Source: Halanaerobium praevalens DSM 2228 (lineage in GTDB: Bacteria; Bacillota; Halanaerobiia; Halanaerobiales; Halanaerobiaceae). From it: a stretch of DNA of 64,000 nt. This document shows, piece by piece, positions 5,737-28,003 of the stretch; the first letter of the stretch is position 1; every line of letters begins with the position of its first letter. The stretch spans positions 1,674,001 to 1,738,000 of the forward strand of contig NC_017455.1 of NCBI RefSeq assembly GCF_000165465.1. Direction: 5' to 3'. The notes below the pieces were generated by a model. It ran no database searches. It was given only the letters and a program-made list of their open reading frames with translations, and was not told where the DNA came from. The translations under genes were made by a program, and so were the position numbers.

Positions 5737-6489
5737 CTATTTAAATTTAGCAATTTCTGTAATTGGAAGTTCTATTTCTGATTTTAATTTTGCTAAATAT
5801 TTCTGATCTAAACTGAGTAATAAAACTGTTGCTGGGCCAGCTGATTTTTCTAAATCTAATTCAAATTTATGTTTGGACTTTTTTAATTTAAAATCTAAAT
5901 TATTTTCAGCAGCTAAAATATTTAATTCATGTAAAATACCTTTTGAGCCAACTGGTAAAATTTGATCTAAATAGTTCAACTTTTTCAACTGCAAAAACTT
6001 TTTAAAATCAACTGCCTTAGATTTAGCAGCTAATAATTTTTCTCCAACTAAGGGCAGACCAGCTGCTACAATTATATTATTTAAATTTGAGCTTTGATAC
6101 TGTTTTAATTTTGCTAATTTAACTTTAGCAATAACAGTAACTCCCAAAGCAGTTTGCAGAGTTTTTACATTTTCTTCAGTACTGCCATTTAATAATTCAG
6201 TTTTTCCTAAAAGCTTTAAGTTCTTTTTAATTCCAGTAATAATTTCTCTGCCTGTAGGCTCATATTCAACCCCCAGATTATCAATCACTGATATTACCTC
6301 TGCTCCAACTGACATCACTTCCATTAGAGGTACCTTAACTGTATATTGACCGACAATTTGATTAGAAACTTTAATTTGATCATAAGTTTTTTGACCTATT
6401 CCACCAGCTGAATCACAGGCAATAACTAATATTTCTTCTTTATTTAACTGCAGTAGAGAAATATCACGTGGAGTTTTTAAGCTACCCAT
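5737..6489 (-). CDS. cblS: Alpha-ribazole kinase CblS-like (PurM/AIR-synthase fold)
   Basis: The 250-residue protein has the ACDSAGGIG motif at residues 24-32 and PLMEVMSVGAEV near 54-65, the ATP/Mg-binding features of the PurM-like superfamily. Knowledge of the family: in some Firmicutes the CblT transporter and CblS kinase take up and phosphorylate alpha-ribazole, bypassing CobT. The call rests on this fold plus its position two bases downstream of an ECF-type S component and beside cobS and cobU. Its product, alpha-ribazole phosphate, is the co-substrate of CobS. A thiamine-phosphate kinase-like role is less likely in this context. Confidence 0.75.
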   Translation of the reverse strand: MGSLKTPRDISLLQLNKEEILVIACDSAGGIGQKTYDQIKVSNQIVGQYTVKVPLMEVMSVGAEVISVIDNLGVEYEPTGREIITGIKKNLKLLGKTELLNGSTEENVKTLQTALGVTVIAKVKLAKLKQYQSSNLNNIIVAAGLPLVGEKLLAAKSKAVDFKKFLQLKKLNYLDQILPVGSKGILHELNILAAENNLDFKLKKSKHKFELDLEKSAGPATVLLLSLDQKYLAKLKSEIELPITEIAKFK

Positions 6490-6491
6490 TT

Positions 6492-6989
6492 CTAAAATGT
6501 CACCTTATCTTTTATTAACTTAGAAATAACTACTGCTAAAATAATATTTGCTAAAGAAGCTACTGTTAAAACAGGAGCTGTGGAATAAAAAAATGGTATC
6601 CCAAAAAAAGGAATTAATAAAGCAGCAGAAACAGCACCATTAACAAAGGTTGTGATAGCTACTGCAAGATAAATATTTTTTTGCATTAAATAGGAAAATA
6701 TAAAACCACAGCTCCCCATAATAAATGCTATTAAAATGTGGATTGGACCTAAAGGAAAACCAGAGTTTAAAGCAGAAAGAAAATGTCCTAAAACTAAAAT
6801 TAAAGCTCCACCTTTACCTCCAAGCAAAACTGCACCTAAAAAACCTGGTAAAGAATCAAGAGCTATACTACCGACTGGCCCTGGAAATTTAAGATAAGAA
6901 CCAATTACAGATAAAGCAGTTAAAAGTGCTACTTTAACTAAAAATGAAGTATTTAAAATTGATTGACTTTTAGAATTTGACTTTTGCAT
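6492..6989 (-). CDS. cblT: ECF transporter S component, CblT-like alpha-ribazole importer
   Basis: A small, very hydrophobic protein of 165 residues with five or six predicted membrane segments and ECF S-component character, including glycine-rich GGKGGALILVLGH and a LDSLPGFLGAVLLGG block. CblT proteins supply exogenous alpha-ribazole to CblS. The ATG at 6989 is preferred over the GTG at 6998 because the GTG lies inside the AAGGTGG ribosome site. It ends two bases before cblS and follows cobS. Whether it uses the ECF energising genes elsewhere in the genome or works alone is not visible. Confidence 0.75.
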   Translation of the reverse strand: MQKSNSKSQSILNTSFLVKVALLTALSVIGSYLKFPGPVGSIALDSLPGFLGAVLLGGKGGALILVLGHFLSALNSGFPLGPIHILIAFIMGSCGFIFSYLMQKNIYLAVAITTFVNGAVSAALLIPFFGIPFFYSTAPVLTVASLANIILAVVISKLIKDKVTF

Positions 6990-7012
6990 AATAACCACCT
7001 TTTTAACTAAAT

Positions 7013-11361: not shown

Positions 11362-12768
11362 TTAAGCACCTCTATTTTTTTGATAACTTAAAGCTCTTGT
11401 TAAAAAGTTCTCGACAATTTTTGGATTAGACCAAAAATGAAGATGGACATAAGAAGCTAATATATTATCACTACTGCTATAACCTTCTAACTTATCTCTG
11501 TATTCATATTTTTGCTTAAGCTCAGCTGCAATATTTGTTATTTGAGAATAATGAAAAACATGACCTCTGGCTTGATCACCTTTAGCTAATAAAAGATTAT
11601 CACTCAGAGCAGTAATTTCACGGTAACCCATTTCTTGTAATTTAGATGTCATTTTTATTTGAGCCGGAATTAAAGCTGCTAAATTATATTTAGCTCCATT
11701 TAAATCTTCAATTGAATTACAAAGATACATTAAACCACCACATTCAGCATAAATTGGGAGACCAGCTTTAGCTTTTGCTTTTAAACTTGCTTGAAAGCTT
11801 TTGTTAGCCTCCAGTTCTGCTAAAAAACTTTCTGGAAAACCTCCTCCTAGATAAAAGGCATCAACTTCAGGTAATTGAACATCATTGAGTGGACTCACCT
11901 CAATAATTTCTACTCCTAATTCTTGCAATAAATCAAGGTTAGCTTGATAATAAAAATTAAAGGCTTGATCAAAGGCAACAGCAACTTTAATTTTATTTTT
12001 GCTAATATCTTTTTTGAAATCGCTTTTAAATAAATCTACAAAAGGCTTGAATTGAGTTCCAGTTTTAAATTCTGGATTTTTTTCTACTGCAGCTATTTCT
12101 AATAGGGCTTCTAAATCTAAATATTTTTCTATAATTTGAATTAATTTTTCTAAATAATTTTCTAATTCTTTACTTTCAGCTACTGGAACCAGACCTAAGT
12201 GGCGTTCAGGTAATTTTAGTTCTTGATTTTTAGGTAAATAGCCTAAAACTTTTAATTCAGGCATTTTAGCTTTAATAGCATCTCTTAAAAGTTGATAATG
12301 ATGCTGACTGCTTACATTATTAATAATAACAGCTTTTAGCTTTAAGTCTGGATCATAATGTTTGTAACCATAAACTTCTGCTGCTGCACTTTGAGCTATT
12401 TTTCGAGCATCAATAATTAAAACAACTGGTGCTTTAACTGTTTTAGCTATTTCAGCTGAACTGCTGACTGAATCCTTACCTTTACCATCAAATAAGCCCA
12501 TAACCCCTTCAATAATTGAAATATCAGCTTGAGCACTAAGTTTTGAAAATATTTGCTGGACTCCAGCAGTACCCAAAAAATAGCTATCTAAATTATAAGA
12601 ATTCTGACTACAAATTAAAGTATGAAAACCTGGATCTATATAATCAGGCCCAACTTTAAAAGGCTGGACTTGCAGTCCTCTCTTTTTAAGAGCAGCCATT
12701 AGGCCTAAAGCTATTGTAGTTTTGCCAACACCACTTCTAGTACCAGCAATAAGTAATTTTTTATTCAC
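11362..12768 (-). CDS. cbiA: Cobyrinate a,c-diamide synthase
   Basis: CbiA amidates the a and c side chains of cobyrinate using glutamine and ATP. The N-terminal synthetase domain has GTRSGVGKTT and VGPDYIDPGFH; the C-terminal class I-like glutaminase domain has its cysteine in YAECGGLMYL (C343 counted from the GTG start). GTG at 12768 is preferred over TTG at 12774 because AGGAGG lies nine bases from the GTG. It overlaps the end of cbiG as GTGAATAA, a coupling arrangement also seen at cbiE. Confidence 0.95.
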   Translation of the reverse strand: MNKKLLIAGTRSGVGKTTIALGLMAALKKRGLQVQPFKVGPDYIDPGFHTLICSQNSYNLDSYFLGTAGVQQIFSKLSAQADISIIEGVMGLFDGKGKDSVSSSAEIAKTVKAPVVLIIDARKIAQSAAAEVYGYKHYDPDLKLKAVIINNVSSQHHYQLLRDAIKAKMPELKVLGYLPKNQELKLPERHLGLVPVAESKELENYLEKLIQIIEKYLDLEALLEIAAVEKNPEFKTGTQFKPFVDLFKSDFKKDISKNKIKVAVAFDQAFNFYYQANLDLLQELGVEIIEVSPLNDVQLPEVDAFYLGGGFPESFLAELEANKSFQASLKAKAKAGLPIYAECGGLMYLCNSIEDLNGAKYNLAALIPAQIKMTSKLQEMGYREITALSDNLLLAKGDQARGHVFHYSQITNIAAELKQKYEYRDKLEGYSSSDNILASYVHLHFWSNPKIVENFLTRALSYQKNRGA

Positions 12769-13831
12769 TTTCAATTTCCTCCTCTACAGCTGCCAGAGTA
12801 ATACCTGAGTATTTTGTTTTATCGATTATTAATTGGCCAGATTTAGAAGCTAAAATAGCCGCTGGCGCTGCAGCAGCTGAGACTCCAATTGTTTTTTTAA
12901 CAAAATCTGATTTTGCTATTTCTAAATCTGCTTCTATCTTTTTAATTTCAGATCGCTCAATTATTTTTAATGGCCAATTATATTTAGCAGCTAATTTTAC
13001 AATTCCTCTTTCATCTTTTTTTAAATCAATAGTAGCTAGACCTTTAATACTAGCTTGAGCTAAATTATTTTGGGCTAAAAATTGCTTTAATGCTTGCTCA
13101 AGTTTTTTGAAAGGAGTATTTTTTCTACAGCCAAGACCAATAATCAAATTTTTAGGAAAAAGTTGAATCTGGTTTGCTCCTAATTTAAATTTTTGATTAG
13201 CAACCACTACCTTAAAAACATTGGCTTCAGCTGAATTATCAAATTCTGACATAGGATATTTTTTTAGATTATCATCTGCTGGTAACTTGAATTTATAATT
13301 ACTAAAAATATGAAGCTCTTGTTTAAATAATAAAGCAGAATTTGCTTTTTTCAAACGTTTAAAAGGCTTTATTTCACAATTTAAACGCTGAGCTAAAAGA
13401 TCAATAGCTAGCTTGTTATTACAATCTGTAGCTGTTGTAATCACTGGCCTAGCTCCTAAAATTTTGGCAATTTCTAGTGTAAGCTCGTTTGCTCTACCCA
13501 AATGTCCTGATAAAGTACTAATTACATTTTGACCCTGATCATCAATAGTGATAATCGCAGGATCAGTCTTTTTACTTTCTAAAAGCTCAGCTATAATACG
13601 AATTACAATACCTAAGGCCATTATAAAAATTAAAGCATCATAGTCTTTAAAAATCTTAGTCACTATTTTTCTTAAAGAGCTAAAAGTTTTAAATTGATTC
13701 TTAGTTTTAGCTCCAACTAATCTTTCTGAGCAAAACAAATCTAAATTTGGATTTTCCTGTTTTAACTTTAAAGCATTTTTTTTGGCTGCTGGTGTTAAGA
13801 CTAAAACTGCTATTTTTGCTTTTTCAAACAC
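12761..13831 (-). CDS. cbiG: Cobalt-precorrin-5A hydrolase
   Basis: CbiG opens the delta-lactone of cobalt-precorrin-5A with loss of acetaldehyde. The 356 residues include the central GHLGRANELT block and TTATDCNNKLAIDLLA, followed by a C-terminal domain with GLGCRKNTPF, all hallmarks of the full-length protein. GTG start at 13831 with a GAGG site. It sits between cbiJ and cbiA, its stop overlapping the latter's start. Confidence 0.94.
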   Translation of the reverse strand: MFEKAKIAVLVLTPAAKKNALKLKQENPNLDLFCSERLVGAKTKNQFKTFSSLRKIVTKIFKDYDALIFIMALGIVIRIIAELLESKKTDPAIITIDDQGQNVISTLSGHLGRANELTLEIAKILGARPVITTATDCNNKLAIDLLAQRLNCEIKPFKRLKKANSALLFKQELHIFSNYKFKLPADDNLKKYPMSEFDNSAEANVFKVVVANQKFKLGANQIQLFPKNLIIGLGCRKNTPFKKLEQALKQFLAQNNLAQASIKGLATIDLKKDERGIVKLAAKYNWPLKIIERSEIKKIEADLEIAKSDFVKKTIGVSAAAAPAAILASKSGQLIIDKTKYSGITLAAVEEEIESE

Positions 13832-19085: not shown

Positions 19086-20615
19086 TTAATCAATTAACTT
19101 TGCAACTTTTTTAACATAAGCTTCTCTAACTCCTTGATATTCACCTAAGCCTTGGAGCTGAATCTCTACTTCATAACCAGCTGCTTCTAACTGATTTTTC
19201 CAGCTATCTTCTTCTTGACCAGCCATATCATTTTGGGCATGATCTCCAGCAACTAACATTAATGGTGCCAATTTAACTTTTTGATAAGCTTTATTTTTTA
19301 AGTGTTTAATAACCTGTTCTAACTCAGGATAGCCTTCAACAGTTCCTACATAATAGTTATCCATTCCCTTATCTTTTAAAACATAATCAAAAGTTGCATA
19401 AACAGAATTAGCAGCATGTTCACTTCCATGTCCCATCAACACAACAGCTTCTTTTTCTGGATCAGTTACTTTTACTTCAGCATCTATGGTCTCTGCTAAT
19501 TTAAAATAATCTTTAGTTTTAGTTAAAAGAGCTCTTCCATATTCTAAAATTCTAAATTTGTTTTCATATTTCTTAACTACCCTAACTAAATCATGGAATT
19601 CACTCCCATTAATAATATGTAAAGGCTGCACAATTACCTGTTGATAACCTGCTTGATATAATTTTTCTAAGGCTGTTTCTGGATTATTAATATGAAGATT
19701 ATCCCTTCTTTTTAATTTTTCAATAATCATTCCAGAAGTAAAAGCTCTTTTTAAATCATAATCAGGAAAATTATCACTAATTTCCTTTTCACAAGCTGCA
19801 ATAGTCTTTTTTCTAGTTTCATGATAACTAGTTCCAAAACTAACAACTAAAACTGCTTTTTTCTCTTTTTCTCCTGCTCGATATTCGTGAGCAAAATTTT
19901 TATCATATAGTTTTGATTTCTGATAATCACTATCTAAAAAATCACCAACTAAAATTAAAGCAGTTTTTTTAATTCCAGCTGCTTTTACTTCAGCCGCGAT
20001 TTCACCTAGAGTAGATTTAATAACTTTTTGTTCTGGCCAAGAAGCTTTAGCTACAATAGCAGCCGGAGTAGTTAATGGATATTCTTTACTTAGATTATCT
20101 ACTACTTCTTCTATCATCTGCACACTTAAAAAGATAGCCATTGAAGCTTGATGTTGAGCTAAGCTAGCTAATTTTTCTTTTTCAGGAACTGGAGTTCTAC
20201 CAGCCTGCCTTGTTAAAATTACAGTTTGGGAAACATCAGGTAAAGTATATTCTGCTTCTAAAGCTGCTGCTGCAGCTAAAAATGAACTTACACCTGGTAT
20301 AATCTGATAGTCAATTTCATTTTCTACTAAAATATCTATTTGTTCTTTAATCGCTCCATAAATTGAAGGATCTCCTGTATGAACTCTTGCTACATTCTGA
20401 TCAGCTGCTTTTGCTTCTTTTATTATTTCAATGACCTGGTCTAAACTTAAATTAGCACTATTATAAACTTTAGCATCTTGATTATATTTTAAAACTTCTG
20501 GATTAACTAAAGAACCAGCATAAATAATAATTTCTGAATTTTCTATAGCTTTTTTTCCCTTAATCGTTAATAATTCTGGGTCACCAGCTCCGGCTCCAAT
20601 AAGATATACTTTCAT
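19086..20615 (-). CDS. cbiF-cbiK: Fused cobalt-precorrin-4 C11-methyltransferase / anaerobic cobaltochelatase
   Basis: One 509-residue frame encodes two corrin enzymes. Residues 1 to about 240 are CbiF: GAGAGDPELLTIKG at 7-20, IIYAGSLVNPE, HTGDPSIYGA near 79-88 and PGVSSFLAAAAALEAEYTLP. Residues from about 252 are CbiK: VVSFGTSYHETR, QPLHIINGSEFHDL with H333 and LMGHGSEHAANS with H396, the two histidines expected at the metal site. CbiK inserts Co2+ into sirohydrochlorin, whereas CbiF acts several steps later. The reading frame is continuous and both halves are full length. ATG start at 20615, one base from the cbiL stop. Confidence 0.95.
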   Translation of the reverse strand: MKVYLIGAGAGDPELLTIKGKKAIENSEIIIYAGSLVNPEVLKYNQDAKVYNSANLSLDQVIEIIKEAKAADQNVARVHTGDPSIYGAIKEQIDILVENEIDYQIIPGVSSFLAAAAALEAEYTLPDVSQTVILTRQAGRTPVPEKEKLASLAQHQASMAIFLSVQMIEEVVDNLSKEYPLTTPAAIVAKASWPEQKVIKSTLGEIAAEVKAAGIKKTALILVGDFLDSDYQKSKLYDKNFAHEYRAGEKEKKAVLVVSFGTSYHETRKKTIAACEKEISDNFPDYDLKRAFTSGMIIEKLKRRDNLHINNPETALEKLYQAGYQQVIVQPLHIINGSEFHDLVRVVKKYENKFRILEYGRALLTKTKDYFKLAETIDAEVKVTDPEKEAVVLMGHGSEHAANSVYATFDYVLKDKGMDNYYVGTVEGYPELEQVIKHLKNKAYQKVKLAPLMLVAGDHAQNDMAGQEEDSWKNQLEAAGYEVEIQLQGLGEYQGVREAYVKKVAKLID

Positions 20616-21919: not shown

Positions 21920-22583
21920 TAAAATCACCTTCTAAATCTAATTTATAGTCTCTTTCATTTTTAGCTAAAATAATCATTACTGTTAGCTTAGAAAATTTCT
22001 TTTCTTTTATTTCCACAGCAGTACCAGCTGTTATTTTTTCAGATTGATAAGAAAGATTTTCAAAGACAAAGATTTCTTGATCATTAACTCCATTTTCTAA
22101 TAAATATTCTGCAATTTTATTCGGGGGAAATTTATTATCTGTAAAAAAACCAACTTTATTATTTTTCTGCAGTAGTTGTAATAATTTAGCTTTATTATCT
22201 TTGCCGTGTAGACTTGTTATTTGCAAATCATTCCAATTGATTTTAATCTTAGCTGCTGCCAGCTGTAAAGCACTAATCCCAGGAATCACTTCTAAAATTC
22301 TAGCATCTAATTCCCGCCTTAAATAATTCAGTAAGCTATATAGACCAGGGTCTCCAGAAACTAAAACCGCAATTTTTTGTTTCTGATAATTATTCAAGAT
22401 ATAATTTTTAATATCTTTTAAAGGTGTTTTGATCTTTATTTTTTCTACTTCTAAATCAGGAAAAAGATCTAATGCTCGCTGGCCTCCAATTAAAACATCC
22501 ATCTGGTATATTATTTTTTCACTTTTTTTTAATAAATAATCTCCATTTCCCGGACCAATCCCTAAAACATAAACTTTATTCAA
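21900..22583 (-). CDS. cbiE: Cobalt-precorrin-7 C5-methyltransferase
   Basis: CbiE adds the C5 methyl group. Its 227 residues contain VLGIGPGNGDYLL, GGQRALDLF near 38-46, VSGDPGLYSLLNYL near 75-88 and PGISALQLAAAKI. TTG at 22583, nine bases from an AGGAGG site, is favoured over TTG at 22589, which is too close to that site. The start overlaps the stop of cbiD as TTGAATAA. It is co-translated with cbiT, its usual partner. Confidence 0.92.
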   Translation of the reverse strand: MNKVYVLGIGPGNGDYLLKKSEKIIYQMDVLIGGQRALDLFPDLEVEKIKIKTPLKDIKNYILNNYQKQKIAVLVSGDPGLYSLLNYLRRELDARILEVIPGISALQLAAAKIKINWNDLQITSLHGKDNKAKLLQLLQKNNKVGFFTDNKFPPNKIAEYLLENGVNDQEIFVFENLSYQSEKITAGTAVEIKEKKFSKLTVMIILAKNERDYKLDLEGDFSGRMEI

Positions 22584-23706
22584 AATCAAAATCCTCCTTA
22601 GCTCCTTGAGTCAAAGCAATAATCCCTTGCTTTAAACTAAAAATTACAGCTTCTGTTTTAATTTTATTTTCCAATTTTTCTTCTGTTTTTTGAACTACAG
22701 CAGCTGCTAACTGATCTAAAACTGACTGCATATTATTTTCTAATAAATAAGCAGCTATTTCTTCTGCTGTATTTGCAGCAAATATGTCTTTTATATTTTG
22801 CTGTTTAGCCCCAAGTAAAGCTGCGTGAGCAGCAATTATTTCTTTTCTAGCATCTGCTTTTTTACTATGAGTATTAAAAATACCTCCAGCTACTTTAACA
22901 ATTTTACCAATATGACCCAAAATAATAATTTCATCTAAATTAAGATCTTTAGCTTCAACTAACATAAAACCAACAAAATTACTCATTCTAATAATTCTTT
23001 CTTCTTTAAAACCAGCTTTGAGAGCTATTTTTTTGCCATGATTTCCAAAAACAAAAATTAATTTTTTTTGCTTTAAAGCAACTGCTTGCTTTAACTCAAT
23101 CGCTAAAGAATCTTTATAAGCTGATTCGGACATTGGTTCTACTATTCCAGTTGTACCTAAAATTGAAATTCCACCTTTAATTCCTAATTTAGGATTAAAA
23201 GTTTTTTTGGCAATTTCTACTGCAGCTGGGGCTGAAATAGTTAATTCAAATCTATGATTAAGTGGAAAAACAGATTGAACAGCTTTTTTTATCATTTTTC
23301 TGGGCTCAGGATTAACAGCTGCCTGGCCAACATCCATTTTTAAACCAGGTTTTGTTATTTTGCCAATTCCACAACCTGCTTTAATAATTACTTCTGTCTC
23401 TTTTTTACTTATATCTTTTTTTAGTAATTTCAGATCAACAGTAATTTTTAGACCATCTGTCTGATCAGGATCATCACCAGCATCTTTAATAATAGCAGCC
23501 CGAGCTTTATCTGCTGTATAAAAACAATCTAAAACATCCATTTCGACTGCAATTCCAGCTGGAGTATTAATCACTACCTGTTGAATTTTTTTTTGAGCTA
23601 ATAACATTTCAGCAGCAGCCTTAGCTGCTCCAGCAGTAGTGGTCCCAGTTGTATAGCCCAAGCGATATTTTTTACCACCCTTTTCAATATATTGCTCAAA
23701 GCTCAT
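22576..23706 (-). CDS. cbiD: Cobalt-precorrin-5B C1-methyltransferase
   Basis: CbiD methylates C1 of cobalt-precorrin-5B and has its own fold. The 376-residue length and LGYTTGTTTAGAAKAA near 17-32, DAGDDPDQTDG, KAGCGIGKITKPGL, PEPRKMI and GNHGKKIALKAGF segments are diagnostic. ATG start two bases from the cbiC stop. It belongs to the central methyltransferase block of the B12 operon. Confidence 0.96.
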   Translation of the reverse strand: MSFEQYIEKGGKKYRLGYTTGTTTAGAAKAAAEMLLAQKKIQQVVINTPAGIAVEMDVLDCFYTADKARAAIIKDAGDDPDQTDGLKITVDLKLLKKDISKKETEVIIKAGCGIGKITKPGLKMDVGQAAVNPEPRKMIKKAVQSVFPLNHRFELTISAPAAVEIAKKTFNPKLGIKGGISILGTTGIVEPMSESAYKDSLAIELKQAVALKQKKLIFVFGNHGKKIALKAGFKEERIIRMSNFVGFMLVEAKDLNLDEIIILGHIGKIVKVAGGIFNTHSKKADARKEIIAAHAALLGAKQQNIKDIFAANTAEEIAAYLLENNMQSVLDQLAAAVVQKTEEKLENKIKTEAVIFSLKQGIIALTQGAKEDFDFE

Positions 23707-24402: not shown

Positions 24403-24915
24403 CTATTTTTCGATTCCTACTCTAGCTTGAACTCCTTTTTGATAATAATGTTTAATTTCTTTCATTTCAGTTACCAAATCAGCTCTTTCTATGATTTCTG
24501 CTGCTGCATTGCGGCCAGTTATTACAACTTCTACCCCTGAATCACGAGCATCTATAACTTCTATTAACTCTGCTGCTGAAAAGAGATCATAATAAACTGC
24601 AATATTTGCTTCATCTAAAATAACTACTTCATATTCTCCTGATTTTAAAATTTCAGCAACTTCTAATAGCCCAGCTTTAGCTGCATTAATATCATCTTTG
24701 TTTGGCTGACCATTAATAAAACATTTTAAACCATATTGTTTAATCTCTACATTTTTCAGCTGAGAAAAACTATTTAATTCACTATATTTCATTCCTTTAA
24801 CAAACTGGGCGATATAAACTTTTTTGCCAGCTCCTACAGCCCTTAAAGCCAAGCCAAAAGAAGCAGTTGTTTTTCCTTTTCCATTACCAGTATAAACTTG
24901 AACCATACCTTGCAT
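24403..24915 (-). CDS. btuR: Corrinoid adenosyltransferase, CobA/BtuR type
   Basis: A 170-residue ATP:cob(I)alamin adenosyltransferase that attaches the adenosyl group to cobyrinate a,c-diamide. The P-loop GNGKGKTTASFG lies near residues 11-22, with VILDEANIAVYYDL near 98-111 and VEVVITGRNAA as family blocks. It is named btuR here to avoid confusion with the SUMT domain at 3.1 kb. The adenosylated product is the substrate of the CbiP enzymes encoded upstream, and adenosylcobalamin is needed by KamDE. Confidence 0.94.
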   Translation of the reverse strand: MQGMVQVYTGNGKGKTTASFGLALRAVGAGKKVYIAQFVKGMKYSELNSFSQLKNVEIKQYGLKCFINGQPNKDDINAAKAGLLEVAEILKSGEYEVVILDEANIAVYYDLFSAAELIEVIDARDSGVEVVITGRNAAAEIIERADLVTEMKEIKHYYQKGVQARVGIEK

Positions 24916-24936: not shown

Positions 24937-26457
24937 TTAGTCTGCAAAAATAATTTTATATAATGCTTTTAGATCAATATATTTTTTAAATTCTTCTGCC
25001 AAATAATTATAATTATCTTCTCTAATTTGAGCTGCAGTTTTTAGATTAACTATGCTAGCTTGATAACCCTTTTTTTCTAATAAGTAATTAAGTAGGGCAT
25101 TTCTGAAATTATCATTTATAAATATATTATGAATATAAGTTCCCCAAACATTAGCAGCTTTGTTCACAGCTCCATCATTAATAATTTTGTCTGTTTTATT
25201 TAATTTTTTTCTTTTTAACTTAAAGACTGCTTCTTCAGATTCATTCAAGGTCCTACCCTGATGAATCTCATAACCACTTAAATTTTTAAATTTCTTGTCT
25301 TGTAAAAATTTCAATTCATTTAAAGTTTCAGCTTTAACCTGACGTCTTATTTTCTTTTTTTCTAAAATAGTTGTAGTTTTCAAAAGGGAGAGCCCCTCAA
25401 TTTCATTCTCTTTTCCTTCATAATGATTTGGATCCTTTATTTTTTGACCAAGCATTTGATAACCACCACAAATACCAATAATCATTTTACCTTGAGCTGC
25501 AGCTTCGATTATTTTAGCTGCTAATTTTGATTCATATAAAAATTTTAAATCATTAATTGTAGTTTTAGAGCCAGGAAGTATAATTAAATCTGGATTACCA
25601 AAATCAGCTGCTTTTTTCAAATAACGTAATCTAACTTCTTCTTTATTTTTAAAATAATCAAAATCAGTAAAATTTGACATTTTAGGATAAGCAATAACTG
25701 CAATATCTAGTTTAAAGTTTTTTTGATTATAGCTTTGTTGTTTTATGCTATCTTCTGAAGGTAGATCTAAATCTTTTAAAAAAGGAATAACTCCGAGCAC
25801 TTTTTTTTGAGTATGTTTTTCAATTAATTCTACTCCCGATTCAAAATTAGCAGGATCTCCTCTAAATTTATTTACTATAATCCCTTTAACTCGTCTCCGT
25901 TCAGCTTCTGTTAAAAGATCTAAAGTTCCAACAATAGAAGCAAAAACACCACCTTTATCAATATCAGCCACCAAAATAACAGGTGCCTTAGCAATTTCTG
26001 CTGCCTTCATATTAACAAAATCCTTGTCTCTTAAATTAACTTCTGCTGGATTACCTCCACCTTCTAAAACTAAAATATCATATCTAGATTTTAAATCAGC
26101 TATAGCTTTTTTAATGACATTAATAAATTTTTCTTTTTCAGCAAAATAATCTGCAGCCTGCATATTTTTATATATTTTGCCCTGCAAAATTATCTGAGAC
26201 ATATTATCAGCATTAGGCTTCATTAAAATCGGACTCATATTAACTTCTGGATCTACAAGAGCAGCTTCGGCTTGAACAGCTTGAGCAATAGCAATTTCTT
26301 TTCCTGCTTTAGTTATATAAGAATTTAAAGACATATTTTGTGATTTAAAAGGAGCTACTTTATAGTCAGCCTGAGCCAAAACCCGACATAAAGCTGCAGT
26401 TAAAATACTTTTGCCAGCATCTGAAGCTGTACCCTGAATCATAATTGATTTTGCCAT
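24937..26457 (-). CDS. cbiP: Cobyric acid synthase, copy 1
   Basis: CbiP amidates the b, d, e and g side chains of adenosylcobyrinate diamide. The 506 residues have GTASDAGKS near 9-17, the conserved PFKSQNMSLNS at 36-46, KPNADNMSQ at 80-88, and EGGGNPAEVN. The glutaminase half has C330 in IIGICGGYQML and H443 in GTYIHNIF. This copy keeps the canonical residues around the substrate site. It lies one base from a second cbiP, an unusual duplication. Confidence 0.95.
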   Translation of the reverse strand: MAKSIMIQGTASDAGKSILTAALCRVLAQADYKVAPFKSQNMSLNSYITKAGKEIAIAQAVQAEAALVDPEVNMSPILMKPNADNMSQIILQGKIYKNMQAADYFAEKEKFINVIKKAIADLKSRYDILVLEGGGNPAEVNLRDKDFVNMKAAEIAKAPVILVADIDKGGVFASIVGTLDLLTEAERRRVKGIIVNKFRGDPANFESGVELIEKHTQKKVLGVIPFLKDLDLPSEDSIKQQSYNQKNFKLDIAVIAYPKMSNFTDFDYFKNKEEVRLRYLKKAADFGNPDLIILPGSKTTINDLKFLYESKLAAKIIEAAAQGKMIIGICGGYQMLGQKIKDPNHYEGKENEIEGLSLLKTTTILEKKKIRRQVKAETLNELKFLQDKKFKNLSGYEIHQGRTLNESEEAVFKLKRKKLNKTDKIINDGAVNKAANVWGTYIHNIFINDNFRNALLNYLLEKKGYQASIVNLKTAAQIREDNYNYLAEEFKKYIDLKALYKIIFAD

Positions 26458-26458
26458 C

Positions 26459-28003
26459 TTAATTGCACCTACTTAATTCTAAAAGTTTATCTAAGTCTAA
26501 ATTAGCTTCTACTGTATCTGCTAAGCGGTCAAGATTTTTTTCTATTTCTGCCTGGTAATTATAAGTTTCAATTTGGGATAAATTTTTATTTTTTCTGAGC
26601 AAATTTAAAATTTTACTGCGAAAATTATTATTATCAAAAAGACCATGTAAATAACTACCAAAACAGTTCCCAGCTTTATTTACTGCTCCATCTTTAAGTT
26701 TTACTGTTTGGCCTGACCTCTCTTTTAATTCAAATAGTGCTTCTGTTTCATTTAAATAATTAGTTTGGCCCATGTGAATTTCATAACCGCTAAAATTAGC
26801 CTGAGCAAAATGAGTCTTGATTTTTTGATTATTTAAATTGGGATTAATTCTAACTTCAGCTTGATGAGTTGTTTTGTGAGCTAAAAATTCTGTTTCAATT
26901 GCTAAAAGTCCAAGCCCTTTAAGCTCTTTTTGGCCCCCTTCTGTCTGTTTAGGATCAATTAGTTTTTGACCTAAAATTTGAAAGCCACCACAAATCCCAA
27001 TAATCATTTTTCCTTTTTGATTAGCTTTTTTAATTTCTGCAGCTAAACCACTTTCTTTTAAAAAAACTAAATCTTTGGTAGTGGTTTTAGTTCCAGGAAT
27101 AATTATCAAATCAAATTTACTAAGTTTAGTCTTTTTAGCTATATATTCTAAGTGCAAATCTTTTTCCATTTTCAGTGCATTAAAATCACTAAAATTAGAT
27201 AAGTGAGGAAGCTTAATAATAGCTACTTTTAAGTTATTATCTTGATTATTATCTCTCTGCCATTTTTCTCTTAAAGAAGCGGAATCTTCTTCTGGTAAAT
27301 TAAGTTCTTTGAGATAAGGCAGTACTCCCATTACTTCTTTGCCTGTATAATCTTCTAAAAATTCAAAAGCTGGTTTTAATAAATCAAGGTCACCTCTAAA
27401 TTTATTAATTATTAATCCTTTTATTAATTTTTTGTGTTTTTTTGCTAACAGTTTTAAAGTACCAACTAGAGCAGCAAGTGAACCGCCTTTTTCAATACTG
27501 CTAATTAAAAAGACTGGGCTTTGATAAATTTCAGCTGTGAACATATTAGCAAAATCAGGGGTCTTTCGATTAATTTCAGCTGGGCTACCCGCTCCCTCCA
27601 TAATGATTAAATCATTAGTTGCTCTTAATTTTTTTAAAGAAGATTTAATTGTTTTTTCATAAATTTCTAAATAGTCATGTTGACGTTCTTGATAACTAAT
27701 ATTACCTACAGCTTGACCTCTAATCACCAATTGAGTTTCTCCTGCTCCCATTGCTTTGACCAAAATTGGCTGCATATCTACATTAACTTCTCTAAAAGCT
27801 GCTCTAGCCTGTAGAGCTTGAGCAATACCAACTTCTGCTCCGTTTTTGGTAATATAAGAATTTAAAGACATATTCCAAGCTTTAAAAGGGGCTGTTTTTA
27901 TTCCTCTGCGAGCAAAAGCTCGACAGAGAGCTGTAGTTAAAATACTTTTACCTGAATCAGAAGCTGTACCTTGAATCATTATTGTTCCTGCTTTATTTTG
28001 CAT
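26459..28003 (-). CDS. cbiP: Cobyric acid synthase, divergent copy 2
   Basis: A second full-length CbiP-family protein of 514 residues, the first gene after the riboswitch and terminator. The P-loop region GTASDSGKS, the glutaminase C338 in IIGICGGFQIL and H453 in GSYLHGLF are intact, so it should be an active amidotransferase. Two substrate-side blocks differ from copy 1: SQNM is AWNM at residues 42-45, and KPNADNMSQ is KAMGAGETQ at 83-91. It may share the four amidations with copy 1 or prefer another corrinoid. An AGGAG site precedes its ATG. Confidence 0.9.
   Translation of the reverse strand: MQNKAGTIMIQGTASDSGKSILTTALCRAFARRGIKTAPFKAWNMSLNSYITKNGAEVGIAQALQARAAFREVNVDMQPILVKAMGAGETQLVIRGQAVGNISYQERQHDYLEIYEKTIKSSLKKLRATNDLIIMEGAGSPAEINRKTPDFANMFTAEIYQSPVFLISSIEKGGSLAALVGTLKLLAKKHKKLIKGLIINKFRGDLDLLKPAFEFLEDYTGKEVMGVLPYLKELNLPEEDSASLREKWQRDNNQDNNLKVAIIKLPHLSNFSDFNALKMEKDLHLEYIAKKTKLSKFDLIIIPGTKTTTKDLVFLKESGLAAEIKKANQKGKMIIGICGGFQILGQKLIDPKQTEGGQKELKGLGLLAIETEFLAHKTTHQAEVRINPNLNNQKIKTHFAQANFSGYEIHMGQTNYLNETEALFELKERSGQTVKLKDGAVNKAGNCFGSYLHGLFDNNNFRSKILNLLRKNKNLSQIETYNYQAEIEKNLDRLADTVEANLDLDKLLELSRCN

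Follow-up and report, generated by a model that had tools for sequence, protein, structure and literature searches.

The cobalamin operon of Halanaerobium praevalens

The window, a 64,000-nt stretch of the Halanaerobium praevalens DSM 2228 genome (2.3 Mb, single contig), carries a cobalamin operon on its minus strand that is headed, behind a B12 riboswitch, by two cbiP genes. The riboswitch (RF00174, 28167-28360, 98.2 bits) lies directly upstream of CbiP2 (26459-28003, 514 aa), and CbiP1 (24937-26457, 506 aa) follows one base downstream. The last base of CbiP2 is 26459 and the first of CbiP1 is 26457, with the letters ...TTAAGATGG at the junction reading as TAA-G-ATG. The initial annotation had reported two full-length CbiP genes one base apart, with the second copy nearest to the riboswitch, and both statements were confirmed. 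The two proteins share about 46% identity.

Read along the minus strand, the order is hemA, sirC, cobC, the riboswitch, CbiP2, CbiP1, btuR (corrinoid adenosyltransferase, also cobA; 24403-24915), cbiC, cbiD (22576-23706), cbiE, cbiT and cbiL. These are followed by a cbiF-cbiK fusion, a DUF4198 gene, cbiM, a NikL-like gene, cbiQ, cbiO, cbiH, cbiJ and cbiG, and then by cbiA, cbiB, a pduX-like kinase gene, cobD, cobU, cobS and hem genes. The presence of cbiD was taken as the marker of de novo corrin-ring synthesis. The cbiA gene (cobyrinic acid a,c-diamide synthase, 11362-12774, minus strand) encodes the third GATase_3 amidotransferase of the operon. In the fusion (19086-20615), the methyltransferase cbiF is joined to a CbiK-type cobaltochelatase. 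Adjoining cobS, a conserved protein without a Pfam match (5737-6489) and an ECF transporter S component (6492-6998) form what is possibly an alpha-ribazole salvage pair.

CbiP/CobQ is regarded as a single enzyme with a single task, and it serves as a marker of B12 synthesis. Both copies belong to this family, as CbiP1 and CbiP2 scored 516 and 507 bits on the NCBIfam cobQ model TIGR00313 (cut-off 309.9) and 614 and 575 bits on NF001989 (cut-off 273). Each consists of an N-terminal CbiA/AAA_26 synthetase domain and a C-terminal GATase_3 domain. As noted earlier from the sequence, both retain the glutaminase Cys and His, at C330 and H443 in CbiP1 and at Cys338 (26990-26992, minus strand) and His453 (26645-26647, minus strand) in CbiP2, which also keeps the P-loop and the invariant Lys41. 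CbiP2 thus shares domains, catalytic residues and length with canonical CbiP/CobQ (TIGR00313; Salmonella CbiP), and its identity to Salmonella CbiP is 42%, compared with 45% for CbiP1. CbiA/CobB proteins are of the same superfamily with the same domain order; however, CbiP2 reached only 64.3 bits on TIGR00379, below the cut-off of 261.4, and the true cbiA is separate in the operon.

Residues that set the W-type apart

The strongest differences between the copies lay in the synthetase domain. CbiP1 has the PFK(S/A)QNM block with its Gln (Gln40, as in Salmonella CbiP), whereas CbiP2 has Trp43 at this position (27875-27877, minus strand), so that SQNM becomes AWNM; we refer to the two forms as Q-type and W-type. 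The Gln was present in the block of single-copy CbiPs that had been sampled regardless of motif, although this is an observed conservation and not an official criterion for cobyric acid synthase. Further along, the canonical loop KPxxDxxSQ is replaced in CbiP2 by KAMGAGETQ (residues 83-91; 27731-27757, minus strand). Both block changes, including KPNADNMSQ to KAMGAGETQ relative to CbiP1, had been described in the initial annotation and were seen again here.

Across W-types, the loops at 82-89 and 145-148 were altered, and the strongest differences from Q-types fell at positions 40, 85-86, 101 and 148 (CbiP1 numbering). W-types have Gly at 85, have lost Ala101 (to Tyr, Leu or Val) and carry Ala in place of Val148. 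Because the genome set was collected through the W motif, position 40 is diagnostic by construction, whereas positions 85, 101 and 148 played no part in the selection. The Val-to-Ala hallmark is seen in CbiP2 as D150-F151-A152 (27548-27556, minus strand), corresponding to Salmonella D146-I147-V148. Salmonella Asp146 aligns to D146 of CbiP1 and D150 of CbiP2, and the specificity differences flank it. Mutation of D146 in Salmonella CbiP reportedly randomises the order of amidation in part.

Sequence searches found no solved structure of a CbiP synthetase domain, and the closest solved sequences were those of dethiobiotin synthetase (BioD). The BioD P-loop and the Lys that follows align with CbiP and its Lys38, although BioD lacks a glutaminase domain and acts on another substrate. 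In a profile alignment to this enzyme, the changed Gln/Trp lies two residues past the conserved active-site Lys. Structure models of the two CbiPs had mean pLDDT values of 91.1 and 89.5, and Foldseek matched them only to CTP synthase and GatD-type proteins. Substrate contacts were placed by alignment alone. The changed positions may touch the corrin and might alter the specificity of CbiP2.

Age and distribution of the pair

Among 38 genomes of the order Halanaerobiales, the W-then-Q tandem was found in four families (f1, f3, f4 and f6). In an even sample of 398 genomes across the phylum, CbiP was detected at E ≤ 1e-40 in 221, of which 21 had two CbiPs; 11 of these 21 belong to the class of the window organism, and at least five others of the 21 (G288, G405, G350, G345 and G075) carry W-Q tandems. 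Both the gene arrangement and the motif differences were seen again in many genomes and so are beyond chance. A scan for the W motif in 84,980 species genomes returned 54 DNA stretches, one of which (L082, Nitrosomonas) had no CbiP; as far as this exact pattern goes, the W-type is therefore rare.

With the motif columns left out, a tree of 81 full-length sequences placed the W-types of the class in one clade (17 rows, SH-aLRT 97) and the Q-types of the class in another (7 rows, SH-aLRT 92). Since each forms its own supported group, the duplication is no younger than the class. Neither constraining the W and Q rows of the class to one clade (p-AU 0.31) nor constraining all W-types to a single clade (p-AU 0.30) was rejected. 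A recent, Halanaerobium-specific duplication, of the kind that the initial annotation had named as a possible refutation, was ruled out because the clade of each copy spans families of the class. The two copies were 71.5 and 70.4% identical to their relatives in one genome (G015) and 64.2 and 64.3% in another (G013). They therefore diverge from their orthologues at nearly equal rates, and neither looks like a decaying gene. The earlier suggestion that they had diverged in function was supported by their ancient paralogy, by the diagnostic synthetase-domain changes and by the equal degree to which the two are conserved. Targeted literature searches found no description of two functionally distinct CbiPs; the W-type is a real, ancient CbiP subtype, previously undescribed in the literature searched.

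All 26 W genomes with CbiD also had a Q-type, so that a W-type was the sole CbiP in 0 of 26 ring-making genomes. By contrast, about 22 of the 30 W genomes without CbiD lacked a good Q-type, the W-type being alone or beside a short, degenerate partner (Fisher p about 4e-9, uncorrected for relatedness). These included G001, G008, G033-G037, three Actinomycetota, two FCPU426, two Acidobacteriota and several Bacillota MAGs. Many of the CbiD-negative genomes were incomplete MAGs; CbiA was also missing from many W-alone genomes, including G008 (100% complete), G033 (97%) and G001 (95%). A Q-type partner was present in eight or so CbiD-negative W genomes (e.g. G032, G063 and G070), and some CbiD-negative genomes (G009 and G029) carried a Q-type alone, so the absence of CbiD does not preclude a Q-type.

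In four CbiD-negative W genomes, the partner was short, degenerate and without the active-site Lys. Short, highly diverged synthetase-domain proteins beside a W-type (L062:1535-2392, L094:4228-5049, L105:1935-2744 and L198:542-1342) have Cys or Thr in place of this Lys and are probably non-catalytic.

Corrinoid salvage and the proposed role of CbiP2

Unlike canonical CbiP/CobQ, the CbiP2 lineage was found without corrin-ring synthesis and beside uptake genes. In W-alone genomes of the G008, G033 and G001 type, the gene order was cobU-W-cbiB, accompanied by cobT/cobS/pduX/cobD or by a binding protein for uptake. Of 56 W loci, 22 had BtuF/C/D or TonB-receptor genes no more than 1.5 kb away, compared with about 5 of 66 loci holding a single Q-type (p about 5e-5, with some locus windows clipped and relatedness uncorrected). 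The uptake systems were of unrelated kinds: BtuF-BtuC-BtuD was found in Bacillota, Actinomycetota and FCPU426, and an SbmA/BacA-like transporter near the W-type in FCPU426, whereas in Acidobacteriota a TonB receptor lay 2-3 bp from the W-type. By context, the W-type behaves as a salvage gene, occurring in ring-less genomes and linked to uptake or nucleotide-loop genes, and its association with corrinoid salvage is well supported by genomics.

The window organism has six cobalamin riboswitches in its genome (L242, L239, L243, L240, L241), including one each in front of a TonB receptor with TonB, BtuFCD, cobT and the CbiP2 operon. This organism is a diderm Bacillota. The nearest neighbours of CbiP2 in Halanaerobium are cobC, sirC and hemA, with uptake genes not among them. 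The organism makes the corrin ring and can import corrinoids, which fits its carrying both CbiPs.

Since the W-type is the sole copy beside uptake genes in many non-makers, CbiP2 probably finishes imported B12-like molecules. Our preferred reading, to which we give a probability of roughly 45%, is that CbiP2 is a salvage amidotransferase that completes the amides on imported or leaked part-amidated corrinoids, while CbiP1 performs the four de novo amidations as an ordinary cobyric acid synthase. CbiP2 would use the same ATP- and glutamine-dependent chemistry as CbiP1, with altered corrin-facing loops. Its substrates would be corrinoids that do not come straight from CbiA, that is, imported part-amidated ones or intermediates released by CbiP1, and its product, cobyric acid, would pass to CbiB and on to nucleotide-loop assembly. 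The reaction and the exact substrate are read from genomic context. According to its title, as cited in PMC7242693, Williams 2007 describes Salmonella CbiP as sequential and dissociative; on that description, the enzyme would release part-amidated corrinoids, which could then be shared. The initial annotation had proposed a second copy for another corrinoid, and this came closer to the evidence, although the context points to salvaged corrinoids and not to a different de novo product.

More tentatively, W-types as a whole may represent an unrecognised branch of salvage, in which ring-less bacteria import leaked part-amidated corrinoids and finish their amidation before CbiB, with producers keeping both types; we consider this broader proposal possible but rather doubtful. 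If the W-type is indeed a salvage enzyme, part-amidated corrinoids pass between microbes, some genomes annotated with a cobyric acid synthase are non-producers, and the two types offer a natural pair for studying how CbiP orders its four amidations.

A division of the de novo b, d, e and g amidations between CbiP2 and CbiP1, perhaps in a hetero-oligomer, had also been suggested. The ordered tandem is inherited in all ring-making W genomes, the specificity differences flank Asp146, and the glutaminase has been lost jointly from both copies in several cases, either by excision of the domain (G024/G025, L087) or by Cys-to-Gly replacement (L056, L095, L108). Such a division keeps some probability, given that producers never have the W-type without its partner and that the glutaminase is at times lost from both. 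However, the W-type occurs without the Q-type in about 22 CbiD-negative genomes, which disfavours a split of de novo work, and a lone Q-type is enough for every other single-copy producer in the sample. In one lineage the joint loss of Cys also reaches CbiA (G074, AEDGG), a pattern more in keeping with an ammonia-rich habitat than with a complex. Overall, we regard the split as unlikely. Simple redundancy, in which two ordinary cobyric acid synthases are kept for dosage or back-up and the W changes are tolerated drift, is an improbable explanation as well. Both copies pass the equivalog cut-offs with catalytic residues kept, but the pair has been retained across the class at equal rates with distinct fixed signatures, and interchangeable copies are hard to reconcile with the lack of any CbiD-positive genome in which the W-type stands alone (0 of 26).

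The substrate-side blocks of CbiP2, being unlike those of CbiP1, could also be explained if the enzyme acted on a different corrinoid or tetrapyrrole made by this organism, one that differs in its metal or in its upper or lower ligand. This is very improbable, as no genes for another tetrapyrrole are conserved next to W-types, whose neighbours are standard genes of cobamide synthesis, salvage and uptake. It is still harder to view CbiP2 as a non-catalytic or regulatory paralogue. Although some lineages have lost the glutaminase Cys or the entire domain, the synthetase domain was retained in every such case, and CbiP2 of the window keeps its P-loop, Lys41, Cys338 and His453.

DUF71-B12 and CbiZ resemble the W-type in being linked to uptake genes and cbiB in corrinoid-salvaging genomes, and de Crecy-Lagard et al. 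(PMC3541065) predicted a B12-salvage function for the DUF71-B12 subfamily. They are, however, protein families unrelated to CbiP, and CbiZ is an amidohydrolase whereas CbiP2 is predicted to be an amidotransferase that uses ATP and glutamine. DUF71 was present in 14 of 30 CbiD-negative W genomes and in 1 of 21 CbiD-positive ones, most with the B12 motif ENGE[YF]H. Its co-occurrence with W-type CbiP in salvage-only genomes (L210-L224) is a new association for that uncharacterised family. CbiZ was missing from 58 of the 59 genomes tested. We considered CbiP2 as a replacement for CbiZ and rejected it, since the chemistry is the reverse; moreover, genomes in need of a cobyric-acid-forming hydrolase often have DUF71-B12 instead, and CbiP2 need not be that hydrolase.

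Loss of the glutaminase function was seen more widely, and the synthetase domain was kept wherever it occurred. The GATase domain has been excised, with the C-terminal helical tail of CbiP retained, in several unrelated lineages (L050:6639-8355, L051:5177-6872, L052:5745-6602, L087:4187-5966, L059:515-1420 and L094:3266-4231). Cys-to-Gly replacement affected both tandem CbiPs in others (L056, L095, L108, with L189 and L191, and L245:1533-2885). The absence of Cys from these CbiPs and from the CbiA of G074 suggests that free ammonia is used there. The CbiA of G024 keeps its Cys, although both tandem CbiPs of G024/G025 lack the GATase domain.
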